Shown here piece by piece: positions 1,050 to 30,805 of a stretch of DNA of 64,000 nucleotides. Each line of letters starts with the position of its first letter. Position 1 is the first letter of the stretch. The DNA is from Blastopirellula retiformator. Its GTDB lineage: Bacteria > Planctomycetota > Planctomycetia > Pirellulales > Pirellulaceae. The position numbers and the translations under genes were made by a program. The stretch is from the NCBI RefSeq assembly GCF_007859755.1, contig NZ_SJPF01000006.1, positions 248,010 through 312,009 on the forward strand, in the 5' to 3' direction. The notes beneath the pieces were generated by a model that saw only the letters and a program-made list of their open reading frames with translations, made no database searches and was not told the origin of the DNA.

Positions 1050-1198
1050 CTGCCTGTTGAAAAATGCCCTCGTGGCATTTTCCAACCTCGCCAGGCTCAG
1101 AGCATAGCTCTTCGCGGCTCGCAAAATAACGACTTACGTCGCTATTTTGGGATCGCATCCATGCGATCACGCAGTCCGTCGAGAAAATCAACGGCCTG
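1050..1198 (+). mobile_element. MITE-like element, copy 1
   Basis: 149 bp, over 90% identical by eye to the copies at 14753, 28199 and 30657. The left end is CTGCCTGTTGA and the right end TCAACGGCCTG, which form imperfect terminal inverted repeats. Inside are three hairpins: AAAATGCC/GGCATTTT, a CGACTTACGTCG-type palindrome flanked by AAAATA and TATTTT, and GATCGCAT/ATGCGATC. It is preceded by CTAA (1046-1049) but followed by CTCG, so the right copy of the usual 4-bp target duplication is absent; the right flank was probably rearranged. No transposase is encoded; the minus-strand reading frame across it is a by-product. Confidence 0.8.
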
Positions 1199-1496
1199 CT
1201 CGAGGTTCAGTCCAGGGAACTATGCCTTGGGAATGGGACGGGGCAAACAATCCGTTGGCGAGGATGCGTGGAAGGCGCAACCACACGGAAAGGTTGGAAA
1301 ATCGCTCGCCGTTGCGATCGAGTTCGGCGTGGTCAATGGTCGGGGCCAAATTTTGAAATGGCCGTTCGATCGACGACAAATCCCCTCCCCTGCCCTTCTG
1401 TCAGATTGGCAGCCCTGCCCTGGCTCGCTCGCCTCGCCCAAGTGACCATTTCAGAAAAACGTTTCCCAGTCAGGACTTACGACGCAAGACATTTTG

Positions 1497-1513
1497 TTGG
1501 CACACCGGTTGCT
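1497..1513 (+). promoter_or_regulatory. sigma-54 (-24/-12) promoter upstream of groES
   Basis: TTGGCACACCGGTTGCT matches the RpoN consensus: GG and GC are separated by exactly 10 bases, and the surrounding TTGGCAC and TTGCT blocks are intact. It lies 120 bases before the groES start. I found no CIRCE inverted repeat here. An inverted pair TGAAATGG (1354-1361) and CCATTTCA (1446-1453) upstream could be an activator site, but this is speculative. The rest of 1199-1632 holds no gene that I can support. Confidence 0.7.
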
Positions 1514-1632
1514 CTTATGGGGCTCCATCTTGAAATTCCGCAAGATTGGCAGCCGGTGCGCTTCCTAGGCGCCTGGCATCCTCATATCCCCATGTTCCTC
1601 AAACTTGGATCATTCTCGGAGGAAATCGACGA

Positions 1633-1962
1633 ATGGCGACCGCGACCAAAAAGAAAACCGCTTCCAAGCCCCGTTTGCAGCCCCTTGGCGACCGTGTTGT
1701 CGTTAAGCGTGACGAAAGCGAAGAAATGACCGCCGGCGGCATCGTTCTGCCGGGCGCCGCTCAAGACAAGCCTTCGCGCGGCATCGTCGTCAGCGTCGGC
1801 AATGGTCGTCTGTTGGACGACGGCACCCGCGCTCCGCTGCAAGTCGCTGAAGGCGATCGCGTCATCTTCAGTCGTTACGCCGGCAACGACACCTTCCAGA
1901 TCGGCGACGACGAAGTCATCTTGATCCGCGAAGACGACATTCAAGCCGTCCTGACCGACTAG
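1633..1962 (+). CDS. groES: co-chaperonin GroES
   Basis: 109 residues. GroES forms the heptameric lid of the GroEL chamber and helps cytosolic protein folding. The family core is clear: LQPLGDRVVVKRDE at the start, GGIVLPGAAQDKPSRG where the mobile loop lies, then GDRVIFSRYAGN and EVILIREDDIQAVL at the end. There is a short extra lysine-rich N-terminal segment (MATATKKKTASK). The ATG at 1633 is preceded by GGAGGA at 1618-1623, which decides this start over an in-frame ATG 87 bases upstream. groEL follows 66 bases later, so both are probably one transcript from the sigma-54-type promoter at 1497. Confidence 0.96.
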   Translation: MATATKKKTASKPRLQPLGDRVVVKRDESEEMTAGGIVLPGAAQDKPSRGIVVSVGNGRLLDDGTRAPLQVAEGDRVIFSRYAGNDTFQIGDDEVILIREDDIQAVLTD

Positions 1963-2016
1963 GTTTTCGCCCCGACAGGGCTAAGAACCAACCACCGAAC
2001 AAGCAAATCCTCATAG

Positions 2017-3642
<1,626 letters not shown>

Positions 3643-3692
3643 TCGACGCCCGGCGACGCCGAGCCGTCGCCGAGAAGTCTACGATGCGAAGA

Positions 3693-3730
3693 AGGGCCGT
3701 ACTCCCAGCGAGTACGGCCCTTTCTTTTTT
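3693..3730 (+). terminator. rho-independent terminator of groESL
   Basis: Perfect 12-bp stem AGGGCCGTACTC / GAGTACGGCCCT with a 5-base loop (3705-3709), followed by TTCTTTTTT. Confidence 0.93.
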
Positions 3731-3937
3731 GCGCCTGCCGGTCAACGCCGAATGCCCAAGGGTTAAGCAGCCGCTACCAAGCTACGCGCAATACCCGCCA
3801 CCAATGGCGATATGCCATGCGCACGACTGAGCGTCTAGCGCAATGAATTGGGCGCGCCAATCGGTACGTCGATTGCCTAAGGATTTCTACTCCACTTTGA
3901 TTCCTTACCCTCTTGTTTTGGTGCTGGGATTTCTCGG

Positions 3938-4449
3938 ATGAATGTTTCGCTGCGTCGCAAGGCGTTTACGTTGGTTGAATTGTTGGTGGCCATCGCGATC
4001 ATCGGAGTCTTGATCGCCCTGCTGCTACCGGCGGTGCAACAAGCTCGGGAAGCGGCGCGGCGGATGTCCAGCTCGAACAACGTCAAGCAGCTTGGCCTGG
4101 CGATGCATAACTATCACGACACGCTCGGAACATTCCCGTTTGGCTATATTGCCGACGATCCCGACACGGGCGTTCATCGAACAGAACGCTTTCGCCGACC
4201 TCCTGAAAGCCGACACGACGGAGTACCTGATGCACGTCTCCTCCGACATTCAAGGAGTCGAGATCGATGGTCTGCTCTGTCCGTCCGAAGCGAACGGCGA
4301 CGCCACCGGCGGCAAAAACGAATATCGAAGGAGACTCGACGAAGTTCGTCGAGGCGATTCCAGTTCGTTACAACCAGAAATCGAATCTGCAACTGAAAGT
4401 CGACGCGGACCGACAGCAGCAAGACTTTGAGCTAACGAGCAAGTCGTAG
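3938..4449 (+). pseudogene. decayed DUF1559 gene fused by deletion to the end of a DUF1559-associated lipoprotein gene
   Basis: The first 70 residues are a good DUF1559 N-terminus: a prepilin-like [18 protein letters not shown] helix, then [15 protein letters not shown] and [15 protein letters not shown]. The frame is then lost three times. DUF1559-like sequence continues in another frame ([23 protein letters not shown]), and the last 43 codons in the third frame ([25 protein letters not shown]) match the end of the carboxypeptidase-regulatory-like lipoprotein that normally follows DUF1559 genes; compare the intact lipoprotein at 5735-6151. So most of both genes has been deleted and the remnants joined. 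A clean terminator still follows. The intact pair just downstream is the obvious paralogue. Confidence 0.82.
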
Positions 4450-4475
4450 CGGCAACGAACAGCACAGCGTTTTCA

Positions 4476-4509
4476 GTCGTCACCCGCCGTGGGTGACGAC
4501 TTTCTTTAT
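4476..4509 (+). terminator. rho-independent terminator after the decayed pair
   Basis: Perfect 10-bp stem GTCGTCACCC / GGGTGACGAC, 5-base loop, then TTTCTTTATT. The 250 bases from here to the next gene hold no other feature that I can support. Confidence 0.85.
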
Positions 4510-4756
4510 TCGCCTCTGCAAAGCGGGGACTGATTCCCCCCGCAGTAACGAGTAGCAACTCGACATTGCATTCCTTCTCTGCCTAACAATGCGGCAGAAA
4601 AGTCGCGAGCCACGCCCCAGTTTACCGCAACGGCTGGTAACGCGCACACAACCGCCTCCAATGCGCAACTTATGGTGGGCACGAAAAGGTACGTGTGTTG
4701 CTATTATTCAGGAATCCTTCAATCTCTTCCATTTTTCTTTCTTGCAGAGGTTTGCC

Positions 4757-5686
4757 ATGACGAACTTTTCTCGCAGACGCGCGTTTACCCTGGTCGAGCT
4801 ACTGGTGGTAATTGCGATCATCGGCGTTTTGATCGCCTTGTTGCTGCCAGCGGTGCAACAAGCGCGAGAAGCGGCTCGCCGAATGTCCTGCTCCAATAAC
4901 CTGAAGCAGATCGGACTCGGACTGCACAACTATCACGACACCTTCGGTTCGCTGCCGCCGATGATCGTCAAATCGGGCGAGTCGCCTGACGATGTTCGTC
5001 CGGCGTGGGCCTGGAGCGCCCTACTGCTGCCGATGCTGGAACTGGGCAACCAACACGATGCGCTGCAAGTCGGCACGCTGTCGCTCACCGATTCGGCGGC
5101 CACGGCCGAGGGCGCCGCCGTACTGGGAACCGCCCTGCCTGCGTTTCTGTGCCCGTCCGAAGCGGGAGCTTCCGACGTCACCGCCCGCGCCGTCTCGGGA
5201 GTTAACCTGGGCCGCTCCAGCTACCCTGGCGTCAACGGCCATGGACCGCGGGTCTATTACTACGACCAAGGCCCGACGGCGAGCGCTTCCGGCATCTTCT
5301 CAGACCGCGTCAAGGGCTTCCTCTTCCGGGACGTCATCGACGGTACGTCGAACACGATGGCAGTTGGCGAGCGGACGCAAACGCTTCCCCGTACGACCGA
5401 GCAAACCAGCACGCAGTGGGCAGGCGCCTCGCATGGCGAAGAAGACGACAGCGGCTATCGCGGCTCGCTGGAAGTCGCTGGTTGCACTGGTTATCCGCTC
5501 AACGAGCCGTACGTCGACGGCGTTACCAACTGGCAGTACAAGCATTGGTTCCGCAGCTTTCATCCGGGCGGCGCACAGTTCGCCTTTGTCGACGGCAGCG
5601 TCCACTTTATCGCCGATACGATCGACATGACGACCTACCGCAACCTGTCGAATCGTCACGACGGCGCCGTACTGGGCCAGTACTAA
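4757..5686 (+). CDS. DUF1559 domain protein with prepilin-type N-terminus
   Basis: 309 residues. The N-terminus is a type IV prepilin-like signal: short basic leader, then [18 protein letters not shown] with the Glu at position 5 after the predicted cleavage site. The DUF1559 body follows: [51 protein letters not shown], and the terminal [16 protein letters not shown] block. DUF1559 proteins are numerous in planctomycetes and are thought to be cell-surface pseudopilin-like proteins; the function is not known. The ATG at 4757 has AGAGG six bases upstream and gives the expected leader; an in-frame ATG 168 bases earlier gives no sensible leader. A lipoprotein gene follows 48 bases later. Confidence 0.92.
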
Positions 5687-5734
5687 TCATCTCCTTCCAC
5701 CATCCGCAAGCGATTCAACAAGGAGACCGATCGT

Positions 5735-6151
5735 ATGAAGATGCGACTGTTGCCGCTGCTGGCGGTCGTCGGACTTGTCGGCTGCTTCAGCAACAAGCCC
5801 GACCTGGAGTTTGGCGAGGTCCATGGGACGATCACGCTCAACGGCGAGCCGCTGAAGAACGCCAAGGTGCGATTCCAACCCCCAGCCGGACGCCCCTCGT
5901 TTGGCGCGACCGATGCTGCGGGGGAGTATTCCCTTTACTTTCAGGGAGAACCGTGGGGAGCACTGGTTGGCGTGAACAACGTCGCCATCACGACCGAGGA
6001 CATGTTTGAAGACGAGGTCACCGGCGAGCGAAAATTCGTTCGTGAGCTCCTTCCCAAAAAGTACCATGTCGAATCAACGCTGACCGCCGACGTACAACCT
6101 GGCGATAACCATTTCGACTTCAATCTGGTCGACGAAAAAAAGCGGAAGTAA
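5735..6151 (+). CDS. DUF1559-associated lipoprotein, carboxypeptidase-regulatory-like (transthyretin fold)
   Basis: 138 residues. The N-terminus is a lipoprotein signal peptide with lipobox LVGC at about residues 14-17. The remainder reads as a single Ig/transthyretin-like domain: GEVHGTITLNGEPLKNAKVRFQP, FGATDAAGEYSLYF, and the closing LLPKKYHVESTLTADVQPG. Such small lipoproteins regularly follow DUF1559 genes in planctomycetes, which suggests a shared envelope role; no enzymatic residues are visible. AGGAG (5720-5724) precedes the ATG, and a terminator follows 20 bases after the stop, so the DUF1559-lipoprotein pair is a two-gene unit. Confidence 0.85.
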   Translation: MKMRLLPLLAVVGLVGCFSNKPDLEFGEVHGTITLNGEPLKNAKVRFQPPAGRPSFGATDAAGEYSLYFQGEPWGALVGVNNVAITTEDMFEDEVTGERKFVRELLPKKYHVESTLTADVQPGDNHFDFNLVDEKKRK

Positions 6152-6170
6152 ACCGAAACGCTTCCTTGAA

Positions 6171-6199
6171 AACGCCGTCGACCTGACGGCGTTTTTTTT
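6171..6199 (+). terminator. rho-independent terminator of the DUF1559/lipoprotein pair
   Basis: 9-bp stem AACGCCGTC / GACGGCGTT with a 5-base loop, followed by a T-run to 6199. Confidence 0.92.
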
Positions 6200-6854
6200 A
6201 TGCGCGCTACACGAAGTCACTCGACCTACCGGCGTCGAGCCAAAGATGTCACGATTTTCCGCTTCTCTCCTTTGACTAGCGTTAACGCGCGCAAAGCTGA
6301 CGCGCATTGCCTTGCGAATAGGCGCCATGCCTGGCGGATCCCGGCCAGGACCAGCCAATTTGTACGTATCCGACGCGAACTGGGCTTTTCGTCGCGCGCG
6401 GCCATTTCGGCGCGATGCTTGCACTTACGGCACCTCAGTTCCGCTTGTCTGGGCTCCTGCCTTTCGGCCTTAGAAGATCCCCGGGACTGCCCCACCCAAA
6501 TCAACGGCTTTTCGCGGCTCCTTCCTCCCACCACCTGACGCTTCGAGACAACTTATCGACCCCGCGGCCGTCGTAGCCTACCTGCGACGGCCGCCTTATT
6601 TCTTGCCCGCGTTCCCCCATTTCTCCGGGATATTCGCTACGACATGATCAAGCGGAACGTCCTTTCCACATTGGTGATGCGCTTGTCCGCGTGCTAGGAA
6701 ACGCCCCCTTAGTTACGTCCTACCTTCTGCATAGCGGCGAATCCTAATGGTGGAGTTACGCTACCGCCGGAAAGAACATCGCCCAACTGGCAGACCGCTG
6801 CAGCCCCGACACACCAGCGGCAACGTTTTTCGACTCGATCAAACTGACTGGCAA
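6200..6854 (+). other. 655-base stretch without a convincing gene
   Basis: Short open frames on both strands show no recognisable protein. The only structure seen is a perfect 10-bp inverted repeat, GCGGCCGTCG (6564-6573) and CGACGGCCGC (6585-6594), followed by CTTATTTCTT, which may be a terminator or an attenuator ahead of the signalling genes. The promoter for the HD-GYP gene is presumably between 6600 and 6854. Confidence 0.5.
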
Positions 6855-8087
6855 ATGGACTCGATAATTTCCGAACTTGACACTTCCTCTTCGGTGGGAT
6901 TGCCCCCCTCGATGCAACGCCCAAGCGAAGCGTCCCAGGCGGAATCCGACTCGCCCAGCGCGCTGGAGTTCAATGATCGAGAAATGCGGCAGAAGCGCAT
7001 TATCGCCATTGATGACGAGCCGGTGAACCTTGCGCTCGCCGAGGCCTACCTTCGCCACGACGGTTTTGAACGTCTTGAGTTTTACTCCGACCCGCAAACG
7101 GCGCTGGAAGTCGTTCGCAACGATCCGCCCGATCTGATCCTGCTCGACTTGATGATGCCCAAGCTAGATGGCCTCAACTTTCTGAAGGCGATCGAAACGA
7201 CGCACAATCAATTGTTAGCGCCGGTGATCCTGTTGACCGCTTCGTCCGATACCGAGCATCGTCGCGAAGCGCTGGAACTGGGCGGCGCCGACTTCCTGCA
7301 AAAACCGATTCTCGCCGAAGAGTTGATCCCGCGAATTCGCAACGTGCTCAGCGCCCAGCACTTCAAGACCTGGCTCCGCGATCAAAACCAACGTCTGGAG
7401 CAGCTCGTTCAGCATCGGACAAAGGAGTTGGAGCGGGCGCAAGGTTTGATCATTGCGTGCCTGGCCCGTGCCGCCGAATTTCGCGATGAGCTGACCGGGC
7501 ACCACAATATGCGGGTGGCGAGATACGCCGGGTTGATCGCCCGCAACGTCGGCTTGCCGGGCGAATTGGTCCGCACGATTCAAGCCGCCGCCCCGCTGCA
7601 CGACATCGGCAAAGTGGCGGTGCCCGATTCGATCTTGCACAAACCGGGACGTTTGACGCCGGAAGAACGATCGCTGATGGAGCGTCATACCGACTGGGGA
7701 CGCTCCATCGTCGAACCCGAAAAGAAATGGGGATTCATAATCACTGATCTCACCTCCGGCGATGCCGGTCAGGCAAACGCCGATCTGCTCCGCGTCGCTT
7801 CGCGAATCGCCATGAGCCACCACGAACGTTGGGACGGCGCAGGGTATCCGCAAGGCCTGGCCGGAACCGACATCCCGGTCGAAGCTCGGGTCGTCTCGGT
7901 CGCCGACGTGTTTGACGCCTTGTCGTGCAAACGCCCGTACAAGGACGCATTTCCGCCGGAAAAATGCCTGGCGATGATTCGTGAGCAGCGGGGGAAACAG
8001 TTTGACCCCGATATGGTCGACGCATTTGAGGAAGCGATTCCAGAGGTTCTCTGGATCCAAGAAATCTTACGAGATGAGGCGCAATGA
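6855..8087 (+). CDS. response regulator with HD-GYP domain (probable c-di-GMP phosphodiesterase)
   Basis: 410 residues. A receiver domain (about 45-165) has the acidic pair in AIDDEP, the phospho-acceptor Asp in DLILLDLMMPKLDG, and the conserved Lys in FLQKP. A coiled linker leads to an HD-GYP domain (about 205-400) with HDIGKVAVPDSILHKPG, the HHERWDGAGYPQGL signature that contains GYP, and DVFDALSCKRPYK. HD-GYP enzymes hydrolyse cyclic di-GMP, so this protein is predicted to convert a phosphorelay signal into lower c-di-GMP. The ATG at 6855 is preferred over an in-frame ATG at 6747 because the intervening sequence looks non-coding. It overlaps the next gene by four bases (ATGA), so the two are translationally coupled. 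Confidence 0.92.
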   Translation: MDSIISELDTSSSVGLPPSMQRPSEASQAESDSPSALEFNDREMRQKRIIAIDDEPVNLALAEAYLRHDGFERLEFYSDPQTALEVVRNDPPDLILLDLMMPKLDGLNFLKAIETTHNQLLAPVILLTASSDTEHRREALELGGADFLQKPILAEELIPRIRNVLSAQHFKTWLRDQNQRLEQLVQHRTKELERAQGLIIACLARAAEFRDELTGHHNMRVARYAGLIARNVGLPGELVRTIQAAAPLHDIGKVAVPDSILHKPGRLTPEERSLMERHTDWGRSIVEPEKKWGFIITDLTSGDAGQANADLLRVASRIAMSHHERWDGAGYPQGLAGTDIPVEARVVSVADVFDALSCKRPYKDAFPPEKCLAMIREQRGKQFDPDMVDAFEEAIPEVLWIQEILRDEAQ

Positions 8088-8773: not shown

Positions 8774-8853
8774 GGGCTTCGGTGCCTGCTTCAGGCCTCC
8801 GCAATTCGGTAAACGCGTCCGTCTTTGCAGCGTCGGTCGAACGTCGATATCAG

Positions 8854-11799: not shown

Positions 11800-12008
11800 A
11801 GCTGGGTCTTGCGCTTTGCGGCGGAATTTCCGTACCTGCTAGCGGCGAAAAACGCTCGGCAGGCGGCCTGCGATGGCGACTCGCTCTAGGAGGGGGCGCT
11901 TTCGGTCTCTATACTGCTGCACTGCGGCGCCATCGGCATTCAGACGTCCTTTGTTTCGACGCCGGCCGACGACGCTCTCACGCGCGTATTGGAAGAATTG
12001 CAGATCCC

Positions 12009-14015: not shown

Positions 14016-14044
14016 ACGCGAAAGACGCGACAATCGAAACTCGA

Positions 14045-14074
14045 AAACGCCGGCAACCCTGCCGGCGTTTTTTT
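14045..14074. terminator. bidirectional terminator between thrS and the convergent membrane-protein gene
   Basis: 10-bp stem AAACGCCGGC / GCCGGCGTTT, loop 14055-14060. On the plus strand a T-run follows. On the minus strand TTTTCG follows, so it can serve both convergent genes; it touches the minus-strand stop codon. Confidence 0.88.
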
Positions 14075-14702: not shown

Positions 14703-14752
14703 AGGACGTTCCTGGGGTTCGACTAGAGTCGTCGCGGGAAAAGAGTACTTAG

Positions 14753-14900
14753 CTGCCTGTTGAAAAATGCCCTCGTGGCATTTTCCAACCTCGCCAGGCT
14801 CAGAGCATAGCTCTTCGCGGCTGGCAAAATAACACTTACGTCGCTATTTTGGGATCGCATCCCTGCGATCACGCAGTCCGTCGAGAAAATCAACGGACTG
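14753..14900 (+). mobile_element. MITE-like element, copy 2
   Basis: 148 bp, same family as copy 1 with one base missing in the central palindrome. Left end CTGCCTGTTGA, right end TCAACGGACTG. It is flanked on both sides by TTAG (14749-14752 and 14901-14904), a 4-bp target-site duplication. It lies 50 bases upstream of a minus-strand gene and 200 bases before a small plus-strand gene, where it could affect transcription. Confidence 0.88.
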
Positions 14901-15104
14901 TTAGAAAGGTAGCTTTTTTCCCTTGGGGATGACGAACGTGCGCCGTAACGCCCGTCGGCGGCTGACAATTCCGACCGCGCGACCTAACGGTTGTAACGAT
15001 TAGTCTTGCGACGATTCCCCAGGATTTCGGATCCCCTGCCATTGGGAATTTCCTATACTTAATTAGAGAGGGTCTCCAAATCTCTTTCATTTAGGAGCCA
15101 AGCG

Positions 15105-15221: not shown

Positions 15222-15359
15222 CCAGCTGACAAACGCAGGCTGGGAGCAAACCCAGCCGACGGATGCGGCGGAAAAAATGTTCGCCGACGGGCACTCCACA
15301 TTTCCTGGGGAGTCGTTAGAGTTGCGGTAGAGCACCTCTCCGCAACCCACGATACTGCC

Positions 15360-17499: not shown

Positions 17500-17507
17500 C
17501 TTCGATT

Positions 17508-20707: not shown

Positions 20708-20715
20708 GTCGCAAG

Positions 20716-22026: not shown

Positions 22027-22041
22027 GGATCGAGAACTTCG

Positions 22042-22069
22042 CCGGGGGGGCAAGAATCTGCTCCCCCGG
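22042..22069 (+). terminator. hairpin, probable terminator without a T-run
   Basis: CCGGGGGGGCA / TGCTCCCCCGG pair as an 11-bp stem with one mismatch. Only TGAAACC follows, so termination may be factor-dependent. Confidence 0.6.
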
Positions 22070-22173
22070 TGAAACCGATTGACACCAGGCAGGGTTTTAA
22101 TGTACGACGGGCGAAGGTAACCTCGCTGACCGACCTGTACATTCATTCCCCTTCTCTGCCCGGACTCGACTCG

Positions 22174-24159
22174 ATGAACCGCTCTTCGCTTCTTTCGCTT
22201 GCGCTGCTGGCGTTTACGGTGACCAGCCCGCTGTTGGCCCGCGATTCGGTCGCCGAGAAAACGCCGATCGGGGCGACGATCCCCGATATGCAGTTGAAGG
22301 ACTACCGCGGCAAAGATTACTCGCTGGGCGATTATGGCGATCAAAAGGTGATCGTTTTGGCGTTCCTGGGAACCGAGTGCCCGCTCGCCAAACTGTATGG
22401 CGGCCGCCTGCAGCAGATGGCCGACGAGTACGCCGACAAGCAAGTTGCGATCATCGGCGTGATGTCGAACGAGCACGACGCGGTCACCGAGATCGCCGCC
22501 TATGCCCGCAAGCACAATATTTCGTTCCCCTTGCTCAAGGATGTCGGCAATCGTCTGGCCGACGCCGCGGGAGCCGAACGTACGCCGGAAGCGATCGTCC
22601 TGACTGCCGACCGCAAGATTCGCTATCGCGGCCGAATCGACGACCAGTACCAGATTGGGGTGGTCCGTGATAAAGCGGAAGAGCACGAACTGCGCGACGC
22701 GATTGAAGACCTGCTGGCGAGCAAACAAGTCGCCGTCCCATCCACCGATGCGATTGGTTGCCATATCGGCCGCGTCCGCCAACCCCAAACCGATAGCAAA
22801 GTCACTTACTACAACCAAGTCGCTCGGATCTTGCAAAAGCGGTGCGTTGAGTGCCATCGCGAAGGGGAAATCGCCCCGTTCGCCCTGACCGACTACGACG
22901 AAGTCGCTGGCTGGGGCGAGATGATCGCCGAGGTGGTTGAAGACAAACGGATGCCTCCGTGGCATGCCGATCCGGCGCACGGCGTCTTTAAGAACGCCCG
23001 CCCCATCCCGGCCGAGGAAAAAGAACTGTTGCTGAAGTGGGTCGCCGCCGGAGCGCCGGCAGGCGATCCGGCGCAAGCGCCGAAACCAGTCGAGTATTCC
23101 AACACCGGCTGGACGCTGGCGACCGAACCCGACCAGGTGATCAAGGTTACCAAAGATCCTTTCAAGGTCGCCGCGACCGGCGAAGTGAAGTATCAATACT
23201 TCATTCACGATCCCGGCTTCACCGAGGACAAATGGCTGCAAGCGGCCGAAATTCGCCCCGGCAACCGGATGGTCGTCCATCACATCCTCGCATTCGCCGT
23301 CGCGCCGGGCGAGCGCAATCTGCGCGATGGTGGGGCCCGCGGTTTTCTGGTCGGCTATGTTCCAGGCATGCGCGCCGAGCCGTTTCCGCCAGGCATGGCG
23401 AAGCGAATTCCGGCCGGTTCGCGGCTCGTCTTTCAAGTTCACTACACGCCGATCGGTAGCGAGCAGTTCGATCAGAGCGAACTGGGGCTAGTCTTCGCCG
23501 ATCCAAAAGAGATCAAGTACGAAGTCAAAACGACCAGCGCCCTGAATCGCGCGTTCAAAATCCCGGCCGGCGACGGCAACTATCGGGTCGAAGCGAATTC
23601 GCTGCGTCTGCCGACCGAAGGCGCCTATCTGTTGGCGATGATGCCCCACATGCACCTCCGCGGCAAGGCGTTTCGCTATGAGCTGAAGCAGGAAGGGGAA
23701 AACGAAGTCCTGCTCGACATTCCGGCTTATGACTTCAACTGGCAAACCGCCTATCGTCTGCAAGATCCGCTACCGCTAACCGCCGACAGCGTTATCCACT
23801 GCGTCGCCCACTTCGACAACTCGAAATGGAACAACGCGAACCCCGATCCGTCCAAAGTGGTGAAATGGGGAGATCAGACCTGGGAAGAAATGATGATCGG
23901 CTATTTTGACGTCGCGCTGCCCTACAAGCCCGGCGATGCGAGCGAAGAAGCGAAAGTCGACAAAACGCTGGCCGCCGCCCGTAAGGTGATGGATCGCTAC
24001 GACGCCGACCAGGACGGCATCGTCCTCCGCAACGAAGTCCCCGATAAAGGGCAACGTTACTTCGACCTGATCGACAGGAACAAAGACGACAAGGTCGAAG
24101 AAGAAGAGATCATCACGACGCTCAAGCAAATGCCGATCTTGCTGCAGTTGATCCGCTAG
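22174..24159 (+). CDS. composite exported oxidoreductase: redoxin, c-type haem, copper monooxygenase-like and EF-hand
   Basis: 661 residues. A signal peptide (LLSLALLAFTVTSPLLA) is followed by a peroxiredoxin/TlpA-like domain (about 30-180; IGATIPDMQLKDYRGKDYSL, FLGTECPLAKLYGG). A single CVECH haem c motif lies near residue 224. The central part resembles copper type II ascorbate-dependent monooxygenases, with metal-binding candidates HHILAF (about 369), FQVHYTP (about 424) and MPHMHLRG (about 490). The C-terminal 60 residues hold two EF-hand loops, DADQDGIVLRNE and DRNKDDKVEEEE. The architecture fits a periplasmic electron-transfer oxygenase; substrate unknown. The ATG at 22174 is used because it places the signal peptide at the N-terminus. 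Confidence 0.85.
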   Translation: MNRSSLLSLALLAFTVTSPLLARDSVAEKTPIGATIPDMQLKDYRGKDYSLGDYGDQKVIVLAFLGTECPLAKLYGGRLQQMADEYADKQVAIIGVMSNEHDAVTEIAAYARKHNISFPLLKDVGNRLADAAGAERTPEAIVLTADRKIRYRGRIDDQYQIGVVRDKAEEHELRDAIEDLLASKQVAVPSTDAIGCHIGRVRQPQTDSKVTYYNQVARILQKRCVECHREGEIAPFALTDYDEVAGWGEMIAEVVEDKRMPPWHADPAHGVFKNARPIPAEEKELLLKWVAAGAPAGDPAQAPKPVEYSNTGWTLATEPDQVIKVTKDPFKVAATGEVKYQYFIHDPGFTEDKWLQAAEIRPGNRMVVHHILAFAVAPGERNLRDGGARGFLVGYVPGMRAEPFPPGMAKRIPAGSRLVFQVHYTPIGSEQFDQSELGLVFADPKEIKYEVKTTSALNRAFKIPAGDGNYRVEANSLRLPTEGAYLLAMMPHMHLRGKAFRYELKQEGENEVLLDIPAYDFNWQTAYRLQDPLPLTADSVIHCVAHFDNSKWNNANPDPSKVVKWGDQTWEEMMIGYFDVALPYKPGDASEEAKVDKTLAAARKVMDRYDADQDGIVLRNEVPDKGQRYFDLIDRNKDDKVEEEEIITTLKQMPILLQLIR

Positions 24160-24170
24160 TTGCCACAACA

Positions 24171-24320
24171 CTAGCCCGCAGCGCGAGCGAGGGAATGCGT
24201 TAGGGTGAATGACTAATGTCTAAATCCTAGTGTCTAATGACAGAGGGAGAGGACGCCAAGTCTTTCTTTGTTAGACATTGGTTATTTGCTTGCGAGCGCA
24301 TTCCCGCGTTTGCGGACTAG
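24171..24320. repeat. 150-bp long imperfect inverted repeat bounded by CTAG
   Basis: The two arms pair over most of their length: CTAGCCCGCA and GGGAATGCG on the left (24171-24199) with CGCATTCCC and TGCGGACTAG on the right (to 24320), and inside them AATGTCTAA (24215-24223) with TTAGACATT (24271-24279). CTAG stands at both outer ends. It fills the gap between two convergent genes. It could be a MITE of a second family, a bidirectional terminator, or both. No coding sequence is present. Confidence 0.7.
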
Positions 24321-24354
24321 AGAAGAGTAGCGATTCTTCGAGGCGGTCGCTTAC

Positions 24355-25578
24355 TTAGCCGTCGCGGCGGAGATCAACCGTCGGCGGGGCCTGGCGGTTG
24401 GCGTTCCAGTGTTTCCACTGGGCTTCGTCATAGCCGAAATTGGCGTTCAGTTCGGCCGCTTGCAGCGTTTCCATCAGCGCCCGCAGCACCGCTTCGTTGC
24501 GTAGATCGCGGGTAATGATCTGCGGCTTTGAAGAACCAAACGAGAATCCGCCGGTACTGCCGCTGCCGAACGCGGCGGAAGTTTCTCCCGGCTTGCTCCC
24601 CTTCGTCACCTTGTACTGATGCGACGTTACCAGAGAGTCGATCAACGCGTCGATGGCGGCCGGGTGTTTCAGACGGGCCAGCACCAACGCGGCGCGATTG
24701 ACGACCGTGTTGTCTTTGCTGTGGAGCAACTGCATCAGGTGCGCGACTGCCCGATCGTTGGGGCGACGCTCGAGCAGGATCGTTGCGCGATCGCGGAGCG
24801 AGGCCGAAGGATCCTCGAGCGCCACGTTCGTCAGGGCGGTCGTCGAAGGCCCGTTGACTAGGTTGCCCAATGCGTCGACCAACGTCTCACGCATTCCCTG
24901 GTACTTGCCGTCCTTCAAGAGTTCAATCAGCGGTTCGGTCGCCATCGGATCTTGGATGGCGGCGATTTCGGCCTGCACGCTTGCCGCTTTTTCGCCGCCA
25001 CGGCGCATCTGCAACAGGTACGATCGCAACTTGACGCGCCAGTCCTTCGTAGCGTCTTTGTATTTTTGGGAGCGTTCTTCCATCGCCACATCTTGCGGAT
25101 ACATCCACTTTCCCTTGTGGCGAATCATCCCTTGGTCTTTGAACCACTGTTCGGTAATGATCCATTCGCCGCGTCGACGAATATAGCCAAGCGCTCTTCG
25201 CGCTTGCTCGTGATTGGGATCCATCGTCAGGATCTGCTGCAGGTGATGATCGCGCTGCTCCGGCAGATCATGTTTGCCGCACCAGTCGGCCATCTGCCAG
25301 TTGCCGTCTACATCGGGAGGCATCTGCGGCAAGATCGCTTCGTAGTTCCGCAGTTCCGGAGACTTTTCGATCACCTCGGCCACAATATCGGCCGGCAAGA
25401 CCATATCGCCCCCGGCGGTGCGCACATGCAGCTCTTGCGGCGTGTCGGCCGCGGGGCTCAGCAACTCCCCGTCGATTCGACCGCCGGAGGTCAGCACAAA
25501 GACGTCCGCCACCGCCGGCGTCGCGATACCAGTCGCGGCCAAAAGCAGGGCGGTGCGGAAGCGGCGGATCAACTTCAC
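24355..25578 (-). CDS. exported HEAT-repeat protein
   Basis: 407 residues. A cleavable signal peptide (FRTALLLAATGIATPAVA) is followed by a small beta domain (VFVLTSGGRIDGELLS). A tryptophan-rich middle section follows (GNWQMADWCGKHDLP, ALGYIRRRGEWI, RHKGKWMY), and then helical HEAT-type repeats (about 205-310; ATEPLIELLKDGKY, TTALTNVALEDPSASLRDRA, NRAALVLARLKHPAAIDALI). Proteins of this design are common in planctomycetes and probably scaffold other exported proteins; the role is unknown. The start is GTG at 25578, which gives a proper signal peptide. The end is rich in serine and glycine before a short charged tail. Confidence 0.8.
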   Translation of the reverse strand: MKLIRRFRTALLLAATGIATPAVADVFVLTSGGRIDGELLSPAADTPQELHVRTAGGDMVLPADIVAEVIEKSPELRNYEAILPQMPPDVDGNWQMADWCGKHDLPEQRDHHLQQILTMDPNHEQARRALGYIRRRGEWIITEQWFKDQGMIRHKGKWMYPQDVAMEERSQKYKDATKDWRVKLRSYLLQMRRGGEKAASVQAEIAAIQDPMATEPLIELLKDGKYQGMRETLVDALGNLVNGPSTTALTNVALEDPSASLRDRATILLERRPNDRAVAHLMQLLHSKDNTVVNRAALVLARLKHPAAIDALIDSLVTSHQYKVTKGSKPGETSAAFGSGSTGGFSFGSSKPQIITRDLRNEAVLRALMETLQAAELNANFGYDEAQWKHWNANRQAPPTVDLRRDG

Positions 25579-25769
25579 GTCGAGGAGTTTGCCGAAAGGG
25601 AGAAAGGGTTCCGGTGCAGTGTACGACGCTCAGAATGCCGGCGCCCTGCAAACTTCAACACCGGCGCACGGCGAAGGAGCCGTTTTTAGTATAGGCGAGC
25701 GGCGCAGGCCAAGCCATTCGGAAGTAAACAAACCGCCGCCAGAGGGGGAATTCGGTCGGTTCGTACCGC

Positions 25770-26210
25770 TTATACCGACGCTTCGTCTTGCCGGAAGAGC
25801 TGGAAGGCGTTCAGAATCTCGTCGGGAATCCGCCGCGGGGTCCGTTTGGCCATGTCGATCAAGACCCACTTCGTTTCGGCCTTGGCCAGGGTCCGCCCAT
25901 CGCTGACGCGGCAGATTTCGTACTGCCGCAAGACCGATGCGGTGAAGTATTCGGAAAGCCAGGTCTTGATGACCACTTCTTCCCCTTCAAAGGCCGGCGA
26001 CAAATATTCGATCGAATGGGCCCGCACGACCCATCCGCAGCCGAGCTCTTCGTAGCGGCGCTTGCCCCAGTTTTCGGCCACCGAATGGGCGACCGCCGCG
26101 TCCTGCATCCAGCGCAAGTAAACCAGGTTGTTTACATGCCCCTGCATGTCGATGTCGGCCGACGCGACCGAGACCGCATGTTCGTAGATTGCCGCCACGT
26201 TAGACCTCAC
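25770..26210 (-). CDS. acyl-CoA thioesterase, hotdog fold (YbgC/FadM type)
   Basis: 146 residues, the usual size of a single 4HBT hotdog domain. The hallmark is ADIDMQGHVNNLVYLRWMQDA with the catalytic Asp and the HVNN turn near residues 20-27, followed by VRAHSIEYLSPAFEGEEVVI and KAETKWVLIDMAKRTPRRIP. These enzymes hydrolyse short or medium acyl-CoA thioesters in the cytosol; the preferred acyl chain cannot be read. It overlaps the stop of the HAD gene by four bases (ATGA), so it is translated as the second gene of that pair. Confidence 0.88.
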   Translation of the reverse strand: MRSNVAAIYEHAVSVASADIDMQGHVNNLVYLRWMQDAAVAHSVAENWGKRRYEELGCGWVVRAHSIEYLSPAFEGEEVVIKTWLSEYFTASVLRQYEICRVSDGRTLAKAETKWVLIDMAKRTPRRIPDEILNAFQLFRQDEASV

Positions 26211-26800
26211 GAAACGGTAATTCGCCGCGGAGTGAAGAAGTTACGCACATCAACCACTTCCATGCCGGCGCGACGCGCCGCTTCGACGCCCAGATCGGCG
26301 TCTTCATAGACGCGGCAATGCTCCGGCTCGACATTCAGCTGCTTCGCCGCTTCCAGAAAGACGTCGGGATACGGCTTGTGCCGCGCGGTGTCTTCCGACG
26401 TCACGCAGGCGTCAAAGTGGTTCGACAAGCCGATATGCCCCAAGATCAGGTCAGCGACGTAACGCATGGCGCCGGTGGCGACCGCCATTGGAATGCGACC
26501 GCGATACTCGTAGACCAGCTCGACCGTCGCTTCGATCGGGGCGACATTGCTGATTTCCAGCAGAAACGCCTCTTCTTTCTCGATTGCGACCGTGTGAGGA
26601 TCGAGCGCGATCCCCTGCTCTCCGGCGAGCAATTCGACGATCTTATCGCTCGGTTTTCCGCCCAGGGCGTAAAACCGGTCCTCATCGAAGGTAATACCGT
26701 ACTTTTCCATGGTCGATCGCCAAGCGACATAGTGCGCCGGCATCGTATCGGCCAGGGTTCCGTCCAAATCAAAAATCAGTGCGTCAAAAGGCATTGGCAA
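26207..26800 (-). CDS. HAD-superfamily hydrolase (beta-phosphoglucomutase/phosphatase-like)
   Basis: 197 residues. Motif I is ALIFDLDGTLADTMPAHY with the nucleophile and acid/base Asp pair. A helical cap follows (DEDRFYALGGKPSDKIVELL), then motif II/III regions (PMAVATGAMRYVADLIL, CVTSEDTARHKPYPDVFLEAA) and motif IV (CRVYEDADLGVEAARRAGM). The cap and size suit the PGMB/phosphoglycolate-phosphatase subgroup, which acts on sugar phosphates or glycolate phosphate. The substrate cannot be fixed by sequence. It is the first gene of a two-gene unit with the thioesterase. Confidence 0.87.
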   Translation of the reverse strand: MPMPFDALIFDLDGTLADTMPAHYVAWRSTMEKYGITFDEDRFYALGGKPSDKIVELLAGEQGIALDPHTVAIEKEEAFLLEISNVAPIEATVELVYEYRGRIPMAVATGAMRYVADLILGHIGLSNHFDACVTSEDTARHKPYPDVFLEAAKQLNVEPEHCRVYEDADLGVEAARRAGMEVVDVRNFFTPRRITVS

Positions 26801-26952
26801 TAAAATCCTTAGGACAATCGTTGTTCGCCCATTCTAATTCGAAACGGCCGGTTTTCGTAGGCCGCGGAAGTTAGGCGAAATTCGTTGACCCGGGTGTGGG
26901 AAGACGCATAATGGATCTTCCCCCCTTAACCCTCACTCGACGGAGTCGATTT

Positions 26953-28191
26953 ATGTCCCGCCTGCCTGCCCTCCTTTTGGTTTTCCTGTTCTTTTCCGCC
27001 ACGAAAGCAGCGGACAACTGGCCGGAATTCCGAGGACCGCACGGCGATGGCGTCGCCCAGAGCGAAAATCTACCGGTCGATTTTAGCGATCCCCAAGCCC
27101 TGAAGTGGAAAACCGCAATCCATGATCGCGGCTGGTCGTCACCGGTCATCTGGGGCGATCGCATCTGGGTCACCACCTCGACCGAAGACGGTACCAAACA
27201 GTCGGTCCTGGCGCTCGACCGCCACACCGGTGAGATTTTGCTCGACCGGGTCGTCTTCACCACCGACGATCCGCAAGAGAAAGAAGTCTCGAACAGCTAC
27301 GCTTCGTGCACGCCAGCGATTGAAGAGGGCCGCATTTACGTTCACTACGGCAGTCTGGGAACGGCCTGTCTCGACAGTCAAACCGGCGAAACGATCTGGG
27401 AGCGACGCGATCTCCGCTGCGATCACTGGCGCGGCCCCGGTTCTTCCCCCATCTTGGACGACAAAAATTTGTACGTCGCCTACGACGGCTACGATTTTCA
27501 ATACGCCGTGGCCCTCGACAAGAATTCGGGCAAAACGGTCTGGAAGCGTGATCGCAACATCGACTACGGCACCGACAACGGCGACCGCAAGAAAGCGTAC
27601 AGCACCGCCTGCCTGTTTGAGCATGAAGGCCAGCGGCAGTTGGTGATGCCGAGCGCCTCGGACACCATTTGCTACGATCCGGCCACCGGCGACGAGCTGT
27701 GGCGGGTCAAACATGGCGGCATGAACGCGGCGCCGCGTCCGCTCTACAAACATGGTCTGGTTTACATCACCGGCGGCGACCGCGATCGCAAGCTGTTCGC
27801 GATGGATCCTTCGGTTCGCGGCCAAGTCCCCGATGATGCGATTGCCTGGGGATTGTCGAAAGGCGCCCCTTATCGCCCCTCGCAAATCATTCTCGGCGAC
27901 CGGATGTACATGATCGAAGACAAGGGAATCGCCACCTGCGTCGACGCCAAGTCAGGCGAAAAAATCTGGCAAAAGCGAATCGGCGGCAACTATCGCGCCT
28001 CGCTGTTGGCGGCCGGCGGCAATCTTTACTGCTTTGACGAAAGCGGCAAGATCACCGTCTTCAAGGCGAGCGACGAGTTTGAGCTGGTCGCCGAGAGTTC
28101 GCTCCCTGACGGCTTTCAGGCTTCGCCGGCCGTCGCTGGCGATTCGCTCTATCTGCGGACGACCAAAGACCTCTACTGCTTCGAGAAATAA
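26953..28191 (+). CDS. exported PQQ-type beta-propeller protein
   Basis: 412 residues. A signal peptide (PALLLVFLFFSATKAA) precedes WPEFRGPHGDGVAQSENLP, the usual start of planctomycete PQQ-like proteins. Repeated blades carry the LDxxTGE/W pattern: VLALDRHTGEILLDR, TACLDSQTGETIWERR, AVALDKNSGKTVWKR, TICYDPATGDELWRVK. A beta-propeller of seven or eight blades is expected. No enzyme signature is visible; relatives may bind PQQ or act as structural proteins like BamB. The ATG at 26953 is chosen for the signal peptide. The stop codon lies three bases before the target site of mobile element copy 3. Confidence 0.88.
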   Translation: MSRLPALLLVFLFFSATKAADNWPEFRGPHGDGVAQSENLPVDFSDPQALKWKTAIHDRGWSSPVIWGDRIWVTTSTEDGTKQSVLALDRHTGEILLDRVVFTTDDPQEKEVSNSYASCTPAIEEGRIYVHYGSLGTACLDSQTGETIWERRDLRCDHWRGPGSSPILDDKNLYVAYDGYDFQYAVALDKNSGKTVWKRDRNIDYGTDNGDRKKAYSTACLFEHEGQRQLVMPSASDTICYDPATGDELWRVKHGGMNAAPRPLYKHGLVYITGGDRDRKLFAMDPSVRGQVPDDAIAWGLSKGAPYRPSQIILGDRMYMIEDKGIATCVDAKSGEKIWQKRIGGNYRASLLAAGGNLYCFDESGKITVFKASDEFELVAESSLPDGFQASPAVAGDSLYLRTTKDLYCFEK

Positions 28192-28198
28192 CGCTTAG

Positions 28199-28347
28199 CT
28201 GCCTGTTGAAAAATGCCATCGTGGCATTTTTCAACCTCGCCAGGCTCAGAGCGTAGCTCTTCGCGGCTCGCAAAATAACGACTTACGTCGCTATTTTGGG
28301 ATCGCATCCGTGCGATCACGCAGTCCGTCGAGAAAATCAACGGACTG
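28199..28347 (+). mobile_element. MITE-like element, copy 3, inserted at a stop codon
   Basis: 149 bp, same family. It is flanked by TTAG at 28195-28198 and 28348-28351. The right TTAG read on the minus strand is CTAA and supplies the TAA stop of the GNAT gene (TGC-TAA). Before insertion the convergent stops of the PQQ and GNAT genes were only three bases apart, so the element landed in a minimal intergenic gap without changing either protein. Confidence 0.9.
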
Positions 28348-29271
28348 TTAGCAGGTTTCCGGCATAAAGGTCGGCATCACGATCCCCTCGATAATCGGCG
28401 GGCGATCGTAGGCCTGGGCCAGGTGCAACTCGCAGTTGCGTCCTCCCAAGGCGTACATGATGGCGACCAGCTTGGGGTTATCGCTGGGGATTAGCGCGAC
28501 CGGCGTCTGGCCGGGGTATTGATTCAGTTCGGCGACGATCAGCGCCGCGATTTCGATGGAACTGGTTCCGACCCCGGGACCGATCATGTTGCTGGCTGGA
28601 TGCCCGATCGAAGCCATCGCCCCGGTGATCTCTCCGTTCCGTTCGATCACCGAACAGTGCCAATAGCCCCGCTGGTTGGCGATCATGTACCGCCAGTCCC
28701 CTTCCCGCGACGTCCGCCACACTTCCTGTTCCAGCCGATCGATCGCTTTGACGTCGTCCAATGTGGCCGGACGGACTCGCTCAAGCGGAAGGTCCATCAA
28801 GTGCAAGCCGCCGCCAGACGGAACGCGGAAGAACATATCCTGGTAGACCGCGTACGGATGAAAAAAGCGTCGACTGTAGAGCGAAAACGAATCGAGGTTC
28901 ATCGCGCTCGAAACGAGCCGCAGCGGCAACTCGCGCTCATCGGCGATGCCGATAATGTCGTCCAACAACGCGCTGGCGATTCCGCCGCCGGCAAACTCGC
29001 TAGAAGCGTTCATGATCCCGAGCGAGATGTGCGTCTGGCGGGGATGATAAAAACAGGATCCGATGATCCGGCCATTCGCTGCGCTCTGCGCCACCAGGCA
29101 GCACCCCGGGTCGAGATCTTCGTACACTTCCGGAAACAGCCCGCACGCTTCCGGCGGGCAAAGAAAGATCTTGTCGCGACCATGCGATAGATACCACGCA
29201 TTGGTCGAGGCGTGAATCAACTCGGCGATCTCGGCCGCATCCTTGGCCTCGGCAGGATGGATTTTAAACAT
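28348..29271 (-). CDS. tandem GNAT acetyltransferase-like protein
   Basis: 307 residues. The N-terminal half has a GNAT fold (MFKIHPAEAKDAAEIAELI, NGRIIGSCFYHPRQTHISLG, GGGIASALLDDIIGIADERE for the acyl-CoA loop). A second GNAT-like unit follows from about residue 165 (VRPATLDDVKAIDRLEQEVW, HCSVIERNGEITGAM, SIEIAALIVAELN). The two-domain arrangement suggests a regulatory or structural second copy; the acyl acceptor is unknown. The stop codon TAA is formed by the target duplication of the mobile element, and the protein end (MPTFMPETC) seems complete. Confidence 0.83.
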   Translation of the reverse strand: MFKIHPAEAKDAAEIAELIHASTNAWYLSHGRDKIFLCPPEACGLFPEVYEDLDPGCCLVAQSAANGRIIGSCFYHPRQTHISLGIMNASSEFAGGGIASALLDDIIGIADERELPLRLVSSAMNLDSFSLYSRRFFHPYAVYQDMFFRVPSGGGLHLMDLPLERVRPATLDDVKAIDRLEQEVWRTSREGDWRYMIANQRGYWHCSVIERNGEITGAMASIGHPASNMIGPGVGTSSIEIAALIVAELNQYPGQTPVALIPSDNPKLVAIMYALGGRNCELHLAQAYDRPPIIEGIVMPTFMPETC

Positions 29272-29495
29272 AGACGCTCCCAGAAGTTACTGCTTACATC
29301 TCTAGTTTCCATTGGCCCCCCTCAGAAAGTCAACTCGGCCGCGGCCAGCCGGCATTCGGCACGTACTTTCCAAGATTGAAGGAACGGCGAGCGCCATTAT
29401 CGCATCTGAATATTTGCTGCAATTGCGTTGAAACAGGCCATCAGAAGAATTAGGCTATTTAGGCGCTTACTTCGTCGAAATCTGAGGGCAAGGTC

Positions 29496-30656
29496 ATGAA
29501 TTCAGGCAGGACTCAAGCAGGCAGGCCCTGCGGCTTCACGCTCGTAGAATTGCTGGTTGCAATTGCAATCATTAGCGTTTTGATCGGTCTGTTGATTCCC
29601 GCCGTTCAGCAATCGCGGGAAGCGGCGCGACGCGCTCATTGTCAAAACAATCTCCGCCAAGTTGGTATCGCGGCGCACCTGTTCCATGACGTCAACAAGC
29701 GACTCCCCCCCGGTTGGATCGGGGCCACCCTCGCTGGCAAGCATGAGGTGTTTGGCCTGACCGGTTGGGGCTGGAGCGCCCATCTGCTGCCGCACTTGGA
29801 ACAGAAAGGGATCAGCGATCGGCTGGCGTTTGAATATCCAATGTTGTCGGAAATAAACCAGGTCAGTCGCGAACAAGAGGTTTCCCTGTTTCATTGTCCG
29901 AGCGATCCGTCGACGGCGCCGCTGACCATCTCCTTCCTCAATCAGACGAGTCTGACGCTGCCGCGATCCAACTACGTCGCCAACTTTGGCGCAGCGCCGC
30001 TCATCGCCGCAGGCGGCTTCCAAGGGACAGGTCTCAAGTTTTCCGGCGCCCCGTTCAAAGGCCCTTTCTCGCACAATAGCGGCACGCAGTTGCGTGACTT
30101 CTTGCGCGGCGCCAGCAACACGATCCTTGTCGGAGAACGCCGCTCGAACCCGACCGACGAGTCAACCCGAGCAACCTGGACCGGCTTCGCCTTCGGACAT
30201 GCCCGCTTTTTGGCAAACGTCGTCGGGACCTCGAACAAGCCGATCAACGATCCAGACGATACCGCATTCTCAAGCAGCCACCCAGGCGGCGCTTTATTCT
30301 TGTACGCCGATGGACATGTCCAATTCTGGTCCGACACAAGCGATCACTTGCAATTCGCCCAGGCGTCTCTTTTGGATGAAAACAATGCAGGCCTGGTCAC
30401 CTTGCTGGCGGGGGGAGACGCGGTCTATTATCCCGATGAACCGGATGAGGAAGAAGATGAAGCGGACGATCCTGACGACGAATACGTTCCGCCGGTCAGC
30501 GTTCCGCCTGGTTATTTCTACGGACCCGGCGGCGATGGCGAGGCCCTTTGCCCGATCTGCCTAGAGCCGAGCTTAGAGCCGTGGCCGCATAAGCCTGGCG
30601 AAGATGATCACTTGCCGATTCTGCGGCCGATCCTGCGGCCGATTCGATTCCGTTAG
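29496..30656 (+). CDS. DUF1559 domain protein with acidic C-terminal tail
   Basis: 386 residues. Prepilin-type start [20 protein letters not shown], then the DUF1559 body (IPAVQQSREAARRAHCQNN, AHLFHDVNKRLPPGW, FHCPSDPS, RGASNTILVGERR, SSHPGGALFLYADGHVQFW). Beyond the usual end it carries an unusual tail: an acidic run (DEPDEEEDEADDPDDE), a CPIC motif and a repeated ILRP/ILRP segment encoded by tandem 12-base units. The tail is about 60 residues longer than in typical DUF1559 proteins. The stop codon TAG lies within the TTAG duplicated by mobile element copy 4. Confidence 0.87.
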   Translation: MNSGRTQAGRPCGFTLVELLVAIAIISVLIGLLIPAVQQSREAARRAHCQNNLRQVGIAAHLFHDVNKRLPPGWIGATLAGKHEVFGLTGWGWSAHLLPHLEQKGISDRLAFEYPMLSEINQVSREQEVSLFHCPSDPSTAPLTISFLNQTSLTLPRSNYVANFGAAPLIAAGGFQGTGLKFSGAPFKGPFSHNSGTQLRDFLRGASNTILVGERRSNPTDESTRATWTGFAFGHARFLANVVGTSNKPINDPDDTAFSSSHPGGALFLYADGHVQFWSDTSDHLQFAQASLLDENNAGLVTLLAGGDAVYYPDEPDEEEDEADDPDDEYVPPVSVPPGYFYGPGGDGEALCPICLEPSLEPWPHKPGEDDHLPILRPILRPIRFR

Positions 30657-30805
30657 CAGTCCGTTGATTTTCTCAACGGGCTGCTGGATCGCAGGGATGC
30701 GATCCAAAAATAGCGACGTAAGTCGTTATTTTGCGAGCCGCGAAGAGCTATGCTCTGAGCCTGGCGAGGTTGGAAAATGCCACGAGGGCATTTTTCAACA
30801 GGCAG
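30657..30805 (-). mobile_element. MITE-like element, copy 4, inserted at a stop codon
   Basis: 149 bp in reverse orientation. On the plus strand it starts CAGTCCGTTGA and ends TCAACAGGCAG. It is flanked by TTAG at 30653-30656 and 30806-30809. The left TTAG contains the TAG stop of the DUF1559 gene, so the insertion preserved its end. Confidence 0.9.

Follow-up and report, generated by a model that had tools for sequence, protein, structure and literature searches.

A miniature transposable element of Blastopirellula retiformator with a duplicated YTAR target, an excess of copies at stop codons and a conserved series of hairpins

Why should a short repeated sequence lie exactly at the stop codons of genes? 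The question is raised by a 64,000 nt stretch of the Blastopirellula retiformator genome (contig NZ_SJPF01000006.1, positions 248,010-312,009, or G000:C6:248010-312009; hereafter the window), in which a non-coding repeat occurs four times. The initial annotation of the window described four near-identical copies of 148-149 bp with imperfect terminal inverted repeats, TTAG on both flanks of copies 2, 3 and 4, and copies 3 and 4 situated at the stop codons of a GNAT gene (TAA) and a DUF1559 gene (TAG). All these observations held: the coordinates were confirmed (Table 1), the copies are 94-100% identical to copy 3, the terminal repeats read CTGCCTGTTGA and CAGTCCGTTGA, the TTAG flanks are present on the plus strand, and the two genes match PF00583 and PF07596. 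We think it likely that the repeat is a miniature inverted-repeat transposable element (MITE) moved in trans by an IS1182-like transposase into YTAR targets, that copies elsewhere than at stops are lost more often, and that the fold of the element aids its propagation. The parts of this explanation with direct support are the ends, the target duplication, an empty site in congeners, relatives that look autonomous and share both ends and duplications, and the overrepresentation of copies at stop codons.

The element is a bacterial MITE, a kind of element already known: it is 149 bp long, has no transposase gene, occurs in many copies and carries terminal repeats and a duplication of fixed length. 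A search of the whole host genome (6.2 Mb, 10 contigs) with the left-end pattern, allowing up to three mismatches, gave 314 matches, truncated copies included (158 forward and 156 reverse); a control pattern gave none. Unless the whole genome is stated, counts below cover the ∼2.42 Mb (∼39% of the genome) of host sequence that was read, namely C1:1-1,460,000, seven further pieces, the window and C3:1-800,000. This portion yielded 123 full copies, 73 in a first set and 50 in C3, which was held out for the stop-codon test.

Identical flanking 4-mers were found in 95 of the 123 full copies without any adjustment of boundaries, whereas 10,000 permutations gave 24.6 on average and 41 at most. The left 4-mers were CTAG (40 copies), CTAA (33), TTAG (22), CTAT (8), TTAA (6) and some less frequent types, which identifies the flank as a duplicated YTAR target, sometimes YTAT or YTAC. 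The 28 copies with unequal flanks weigh against this, and are compatible with decay or recombination. The locus of copy 3 aligns without the element in all three congeners (G001, G002 and G003), with a single TTAG at the empty site in G002 and G001 and TCAG in G003; for copy 4 no alignable empty site was present in the congeners. The reading of the repeat in the initial annotation as a non-coding MITE with a 4-bp YTAR duplication is upheld by these flanks and by the single-TTAG empty site. An element of REP/RAYT type (IS200/IS605 superfamily), in which TTAG would be a fixed end instead of a duplication, also has hairpins and a flanking tetranucleotide, and an IS200-like frame is present near C3:114638, coincidentally as far as seen. 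This identity was rejected as highly improbable, since it requires that no target be duplicated, while here the 4-mer differs among copies (CTAG, CTAA, TTAG, CTAT, TTAA), matches within a copy and is single at the empty site. Flanks that co-vary in this way, together with the empty site, are those of a duplication made by a staggered cut.

As an observation on flanks, copy 1 of the window and the copy at C1:1640366-1640514 both have a left flank of CTAA and a right flank of CTCGAG, which do not look like a duplication, and share no wider flank homology.

How often, then, does the element lie at stops? Genes were called on empty-site sequence, from which duplicated-flank copies had been excised together with one copy of the target, by a home-made hexamer model trained on the host (1,159 genes in C1; coding share 84%). 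In the first set a stop of a predicted gene lay inside the target of 31 of the 56 duplicated-flank copies, 23 copies were intergenic and two were in coding sequence. Among 51 non-coding sites with the tested motifs, 30 were at stops while 9.5 were expected, and none of 20,000 draws reached 30. The effect is independent of short genes: when only genes of 200 aa or more were considered, 16 of 333 YTAR stops were occupied. In the held-out C3, 18 of 40 copies were at stops, and for YTAR sites 16 of 247 stops were occupied versus 14 of 898 other non-coding sites (odds ratio, OR, 4.4; p 1.1e-4). Pooled YTAR sites gave 44/731 for stops versus 33/2,841 for other non-coding sites (OR 5.4) and 5/4,344 for coding sequence; the 44 include the two window copies that raised the question, and the table omits the 28 copies with unequal flanks as well as sites of other motifs. 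In all, 49 of 96 duplicated-flank copies form or touch a stop codon of a predicted gene.

The enrichment over background target sites proposed in the initial annotation was thus borne out and replicated in C3. The cause it had offered, a target preference rich in TAA and TAG, fared only in part: the excess is real, but it is not explained by the 4-bp motif alone, because the control consists of other non-coding sites with the same motif. Any YTAR contains TAA or TAG on one strand or on both, and many such sites therefore overlap stops. Through the duplication of its target, an insertion at a stop harms neither the coding sequence nor the intergenic DNA that follows. Insertions at other places would be lost more often, and the survivors would therefore collect at stops.

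The position of stops relative to neighbouring genes bears on this. In tandem gaps 30 of 495 stops and 14 of 1,445 other sites were occupied (OR 6.6); between convergent genes the corresponding figures were 14/236 and 9/383 (OR 2.6, p 0.028). Since the excess falls to this value between convergent genes, purifying selection probably explains much of it. In addition, the 60 tandem YTAR-stop gaps of less than 30 bp were all free of copies (0 of 19 observed, Fisher p 0.03). The pattern fits a loss of copies that interrupt genes, promoters or closely packed operons, stops being the safest positions, plus some contribution of target context. Several points weigh against this reading. The gene caller is home-made. 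An excess persists in convergent gaps, where promoters should not interfere, and G/C is favoured in the 3 bp that flank the target on each side, a context which favours stops only ∼1.4-fold (1.26 versus 0.89); selection, therefore, may not be the whole story. In relatives, where at least one locus is counted twice among the 35 element matches, 10 keep a TA-centred duplication and four of these 10 are at stops, a weaker signal. Finally, the nine autonomous relatives described below comprise one at a stop (of a weak 52-aa call), seven intergenic ones and one inside a predicted gene.

The convergent-gap excess and the G/C-rich flanks are also what would favour the excess being mainly target choice, exerted through a longer sequence context, local structure or a transcription- or translation-ending state at gene ends. 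We regard this as doubtful, given that the tandem-gap excess is the larger one, as expected if promoter-proximal insertions are lost, that coding insertions are the rarest and that just one of nine autonomous relatives is at a stop. Retention of copies at stops for a benefit to the host, either with the left hairpin as a bidirectional terminator (A5, G+C stem, T5) or through protection or cutting of 3′-end transcripts, appears improbable. It could draw on the symmetric A-run and T-run around the left stem, with nearly invariant columns, and on the absence of copies from short tandem gaps. A terminator scan of window positions 28000-31000, however, gave four candidates where shuffles gave 3.3, and none of the four lies in copy 3 or copy 4; the 49 copies at stops have no clear orientation bias relative to the gene (same versus opposite: 18 versus 13 in the first set, 13 versus 5 in C3, together 31 versus 18, p 0.085). 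An apparent dip in insertions 21-60 bp past stops (0/228 in the first set) was discarded, as it was not repeated in the second (3/125).

Which enzyme could move the element? The candidate helper is an IS1182-like DDE transposase (DUF772 + DDE_Tnp_1) that would act in trans, recognize the 11-bp end CAGNCNGTTGA and make a 4-bp staggered cut at YTAR, with G/C favoured beside the site. A protein search gave matches in 40 of 196 genomes, the host included. Ends were examined at 25 loci (L181-L205), with up to one mismatch allowed per end; nine loci (L183, L185, L186, L187, L188, L190, L192, L193 and L196) had paired CAGNCNGTTGA ends with identical YTAR flanks, 1,069-1,540 bp apart, and these include eight of the 11 relatives' loci with an open frame longer than 400 aa. 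In the host, the terminal repeat (TTCAACGGGCTG) and then a YTAR flank (CTAG) come after a truncated transposase frame of 405 aa (C1:769747-770961), whose 5′ side continues into another gene resembling those of insertion sequences (ISs). From these sequence matches it is likely that an IS1182-like transposase moved the copies. Two results speak against it: the host yielded no complete transposase of this type, and loci L184, L189 and L191 have long frames without paired ends by the pattern used. The helper of the recent copies was not seen, because the two host matches are this 5′-truncated copy and a fragment.

The initial annotation had pointed to the IS5 subgroup and had suggested a search for a full-length IS with the same ends. 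Such ISs were recovered in relatives, at the nine loci above. As to the subgroup, the 4-bp YTAR duplication stands; assignment to IS5 was not established. A YTAR 4-bp duplication defines the IS5 group, and the ends of IS5 of Escherichia coli differ from those of the MITE. For the L183 and L187 transposases the IS1182 NCBIfam model scored best (195.5 and 195.1 bits), below its cut-off of 270; IS5_4 was second (117.8 and 92.1 bits versus a cut-off of 140), and IS5_1, IS5_2 and IS5_3 were below cut-off as well. IS1182 was also the best-scoring model for the truncated host copy (163.3 bits). Both the L183 and L187 proteins carry DUF772 and DDE_Tnp_1, domains associated with the IS1182 family. On these model scores the transposase is labelled IS1182-like and is not assigned to that family, since the score lies below the curated cut-off although the model is the best one.

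Other candidate helpers were rejected. DDE_5 (PF13546), expected for an IS701-type helper, had no match in the host genome, and DDE_Tnp_1_2 (PF13586) had no match either. PF01609 had 23 matches in the host, among them a ten-copy group of 406 aa which has other ends (CACGGCGAT...). The 426-aa IS4-family transposase, also among these matches, is part of an element nested within the MITE. The left end followed by non-element sequence was matched eight times: six matches lie inside the IS4 transposase gene, one is a 26-bp derivative with CTAG on both sides and one is unrelated. A profile of the element found nothing in the loci of the autonomous relatives, which have only the short ends in common with it, and the element's terminal hairpins were not seen in their end sequences.

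If the helper recognizes the ends, what is the interior for? Copy 3 is predicted to fold into five consecutive hairpins on either strand (-62.8 and -73.3 kcal/mol), a feature that the initial annotation had missed. Conservation was assessed in an alignment of 29 sequences, built without structure information: two from the host, six from three congeners, 17 from one Pirellulales metagenome-assembled genome (MAG) and one each from G037, G045, G056 and a Planctomycetaceae MAG. The five-hairpin structure is paired in 89.8% of cells versus 84.0% in shuffles, where cells count sequences rather than events and one MAG provides more than half of the rows; both sides have changed in 20 of 50 pairs versus 11.3, and the covariation score is 0.181 versus 0.083 (each reached by 0/500 shuffles). 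If the partner is shifted by 1-3 columns, pairing drops to 31-42%. Unaided, RNAalifold predicted 32 pairs, 12 of them with changes on both sides. End-to-end pairing of the terminal repeats gave little beyond shuffles for both-side changes (three pairs, 286/500), and Rfam had no match at gathering score within the window. A·C combinations (G·U on the other strand) exceed G·T, with 82 versus 21 cells over the 50 pairs and 31 versus 15 pair-columns (p 0.026); the excess suggests folding of the reverse-complement strand.

Variants in a sample of 97 host copies 149 bp long, 64 of them belonging to the first set and 33 being duplicated-flank copies from C3, were divided into rare (up to two copies), mid-frequency (3-7) and common (at least eight); rare variants are counted per copy and the others per variant, so that direct comparison is rough. 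Rare variants fall as they would without constraint: the 102 paired positions have 137 and the 47 unpaired ones have 72 (p 0.37). The 137 stem changes comprise 80 that break the pair, 30 G·T, 26 A·C and one standard pair. Such indifference of rare changes to the stems also counts against a host benefit. Common variants avoid stems (four paired, nine unpaired; p 0.006), and none of the four paired ones breaks its pair if G·U is allowed on either strand. At mid-frequency four variants are paired and seven unpaired, with three of the four paired ones breaking the pair.

Our reading is that the fold is kept in transposing lineages and not in resident copies. As private mutations ignore the fold and common inherited variants avoid the stems, its importance seems to lie in propagation and not in any service to host genes; the five-hairpin interior would not be filler, and its fold most likely helps the element propagate. 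Two results weigh against this: three of the eight common or mid-frequency stem variants break a pair, and further pair types were not above shuffles (42 versus 39.6, 88/500). A mutational origin of the paired changes, by template switching that perfects palindromes rather than by selection on the fold, is also to be considered. Near-perfect palindromes are prone to template-switch correction, and the third hairpin of the core-only fragment of the window (62875-62959) is an unusually perfect palindrome, extended by flanking bases. We find this origin unlikely, for only one of the 137 rare stem changes gives a standard pair with the consensus partner, and an A·C excess is not expected from palindrome correction.

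A more specific version of selection on the fold treats the element as a mobile structured nucleic acid, whose propagation would require one interior strand to fold, as RNA or single-stranded DNA; with respect to the orientation used here, this would be the reverse complement. Selection would act in source copies only, and the IS1182-like transposase would accept the fold in trans. We put this forward tentatively, as a possibility that has the odds somewhat against it. If true, it would make the element a cut-and-paste-type MITE with a cis-acting fold, unlike the usual picture of MITE interiors.

Comparison with known systems draws on excerpts of the cited papers. MITEPsy1 of Pseudomonas syringae pv. 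phaseolicola, 100 nt long, inserts after CTAG or YTAA and duplicates its target (PMC3189936); this type of target is therefore already known for a MITE. Like the present element it is short and non-coding, has a YTAR-like duplicated target and ends like those of a resident IS (ISPsy2), but its terminal repeats are 18 nt long and different, and the excerpt reports no stop excess or conserved multi-hairpin interior (PMC3189936). The classic parallels for copy number and helper logic are RUP and ERIC (PMC2229807). RUP of Streptococcus pneumoniae (107 bp, ∼108 copies) is presumed to owe its mobility to a resident IS that has similar ends and acts in trans, although its helper is of IS630 type and its target TA (PMC2229807). 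ERIC/IRU and Correia/NEMIS elements share a length of 100-200 bp, strong stem-loop transcripts, a duplicated target and proposed effects on neighbouring mRNA; they mostly form one long end-to-end stem-loop, whereas here five serial hairpins and a YTAR target are seen (PMC2229807). Among autonomous elements, a table entry gives ISPse1 as a 1,653-bp member of the IS1182 family with the values '16/16' and '4', taken here as the lengths of terminal repeat and duplication (PMC3281130). The relatives' transposases resemble the IS1182 type in fitting its model best and differ in scoring below its cut-off. IS1272 replaces inverted repeats without duplication (PMC5678879). Copies of IS5 in E. coli are flanked by CTAA or CTAG (PMC11677980), but IS5 models score below cut-off for the relatives' transposases.

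In the excerpts of a review of prokaryotic MITEs (PMC10969869) the terms 'stop codon', 'Planctomycet' and 'IS1182' do not occur, and in the open-access literature searched, also represented in part, we recognized no paper on this element or on a stop excess of a bacterial MITE, which is no proof of absence. Within that literature the measured stop-codon excess and the conserved multi-hairpin interior are new, while the kind of element is known. A target containing TAA or TAG can let a selfish element reach hundreds of copies with little damage, as about half of the duplicated-flank copies are at stops. With the stop excess, target choice and selection can be told apart by measurement in a bacterium. 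Stems are spared by inherited variants but not by private mutations, and this difference makes it testable whether a MITE interior functions in transposition.

Table 1. Coordinates of the element copies, their target duplications, associated genes and hairpins in the window, and of nested units elsewhere in the material (prefixed coordinates)
Feature	Location	Strand	Remarks
Element copy 1	1050..1198	+	149 bp; left flank CTAA, right CTCG; no target duplication
Element copy 2	14753..14900	+	148 bp; between divergent genes
Left TTAG duplication, copy 2	14749..14752		
Right TTAG duplication, copy 2	14901..14904		
Element copy 3	28199..28347	+	149 bp; stop codon site between convergent genes; site empty in three congeners
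Left TTAG duplication, copy 3	28195..28198		
Right TTAG duplication, copy 3	28348..28351		contains TAA stop of GNAT gene (28348-28350, minus strand)
Element copy 4	30657..30805	-	149 bp; at TAG stop of DUF1559 gene
TTAG duplication, copy 4	30653..30656		contains TAG stop of DUF1559 gene (30654-30656)
Second TTAG duplication, copy 4	30806..30809		
GNAT acetyltransferase-domain gene	28348..29271	-	stop is target of copy 3; PF00583, 27.7 bits
DUF1559 gene with N-methylation motif	29496..30656	+	stop is target of copy 4; PF07596, 157.8 bits
Core-only element fragment (fifth in window)	62875..62959	-	without terminal repeats or duplication
Hairpin 1 (left), copy 3	28205..28235		element positions 7-37; AAAAA/TTTTT arms around G+C stem
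Hairpin 2, copy 3	28239..28267		element positions 41-69
Hairpin 3, copy 3	28271..28298		element positions 73-100
Hairpin 4, copy 3	28301..28316		element positions 103-118
Hairpin 5 (right end), copy 3	28321..28347		element positions 123-149; with right terminal repeat
Nested IS4 unit	C1:917326-918590		
Nested IS4 unit	C1:650425-652360		
Nested IS4 unit	L140:7707-9415		
Nested IS4 unit	L141:7206-8840		
Nested IS4 unit	L144:7054-8762		
Nested IS4 unit	L143:6398-8308		

The nested IS4-family element (426-aa transposase, NF033592, 217 bits) lies in the loop of the left hairpin, with ∼13 bp duplicated. Seven copies were examined: five have sequence of the MITE on both sides, a sixth has it on one side and the seventh is elsewhere. 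Because four nested units have matching outer YTAR flanks, either the IS4-family IS picks the left hairpin or a nested unit has moved as a whole. In the L140 unit the two duplicated stretches differ by one base.

Related genomes carrying the element include records named 'Pirellulales bacterium' and 'Planctomycetaceae bacterium'. No match to the element was found in plasmid sequences; a single viral contig, IMGVR_UViG_2891333991_000001 of IMG/VR (L287:11184-11206), has the exact core pattern. Within C1:845667-846833 three copies in the same orientation occur in 1.2 kb; each has the rarer left end, CAGCC, and a left flank of TTAA type. Internally deleted derivatives with duplicated YTAR flanks measure 132, 115, 98, 43, 27 and 26 bp; the shortest three (L138:7418-7443, 26 bp; C1:1215475-1215501, 27 bp; C1:686328-686370, 43 bp) consist of barely more than the ends and have identical YTAR flanks.

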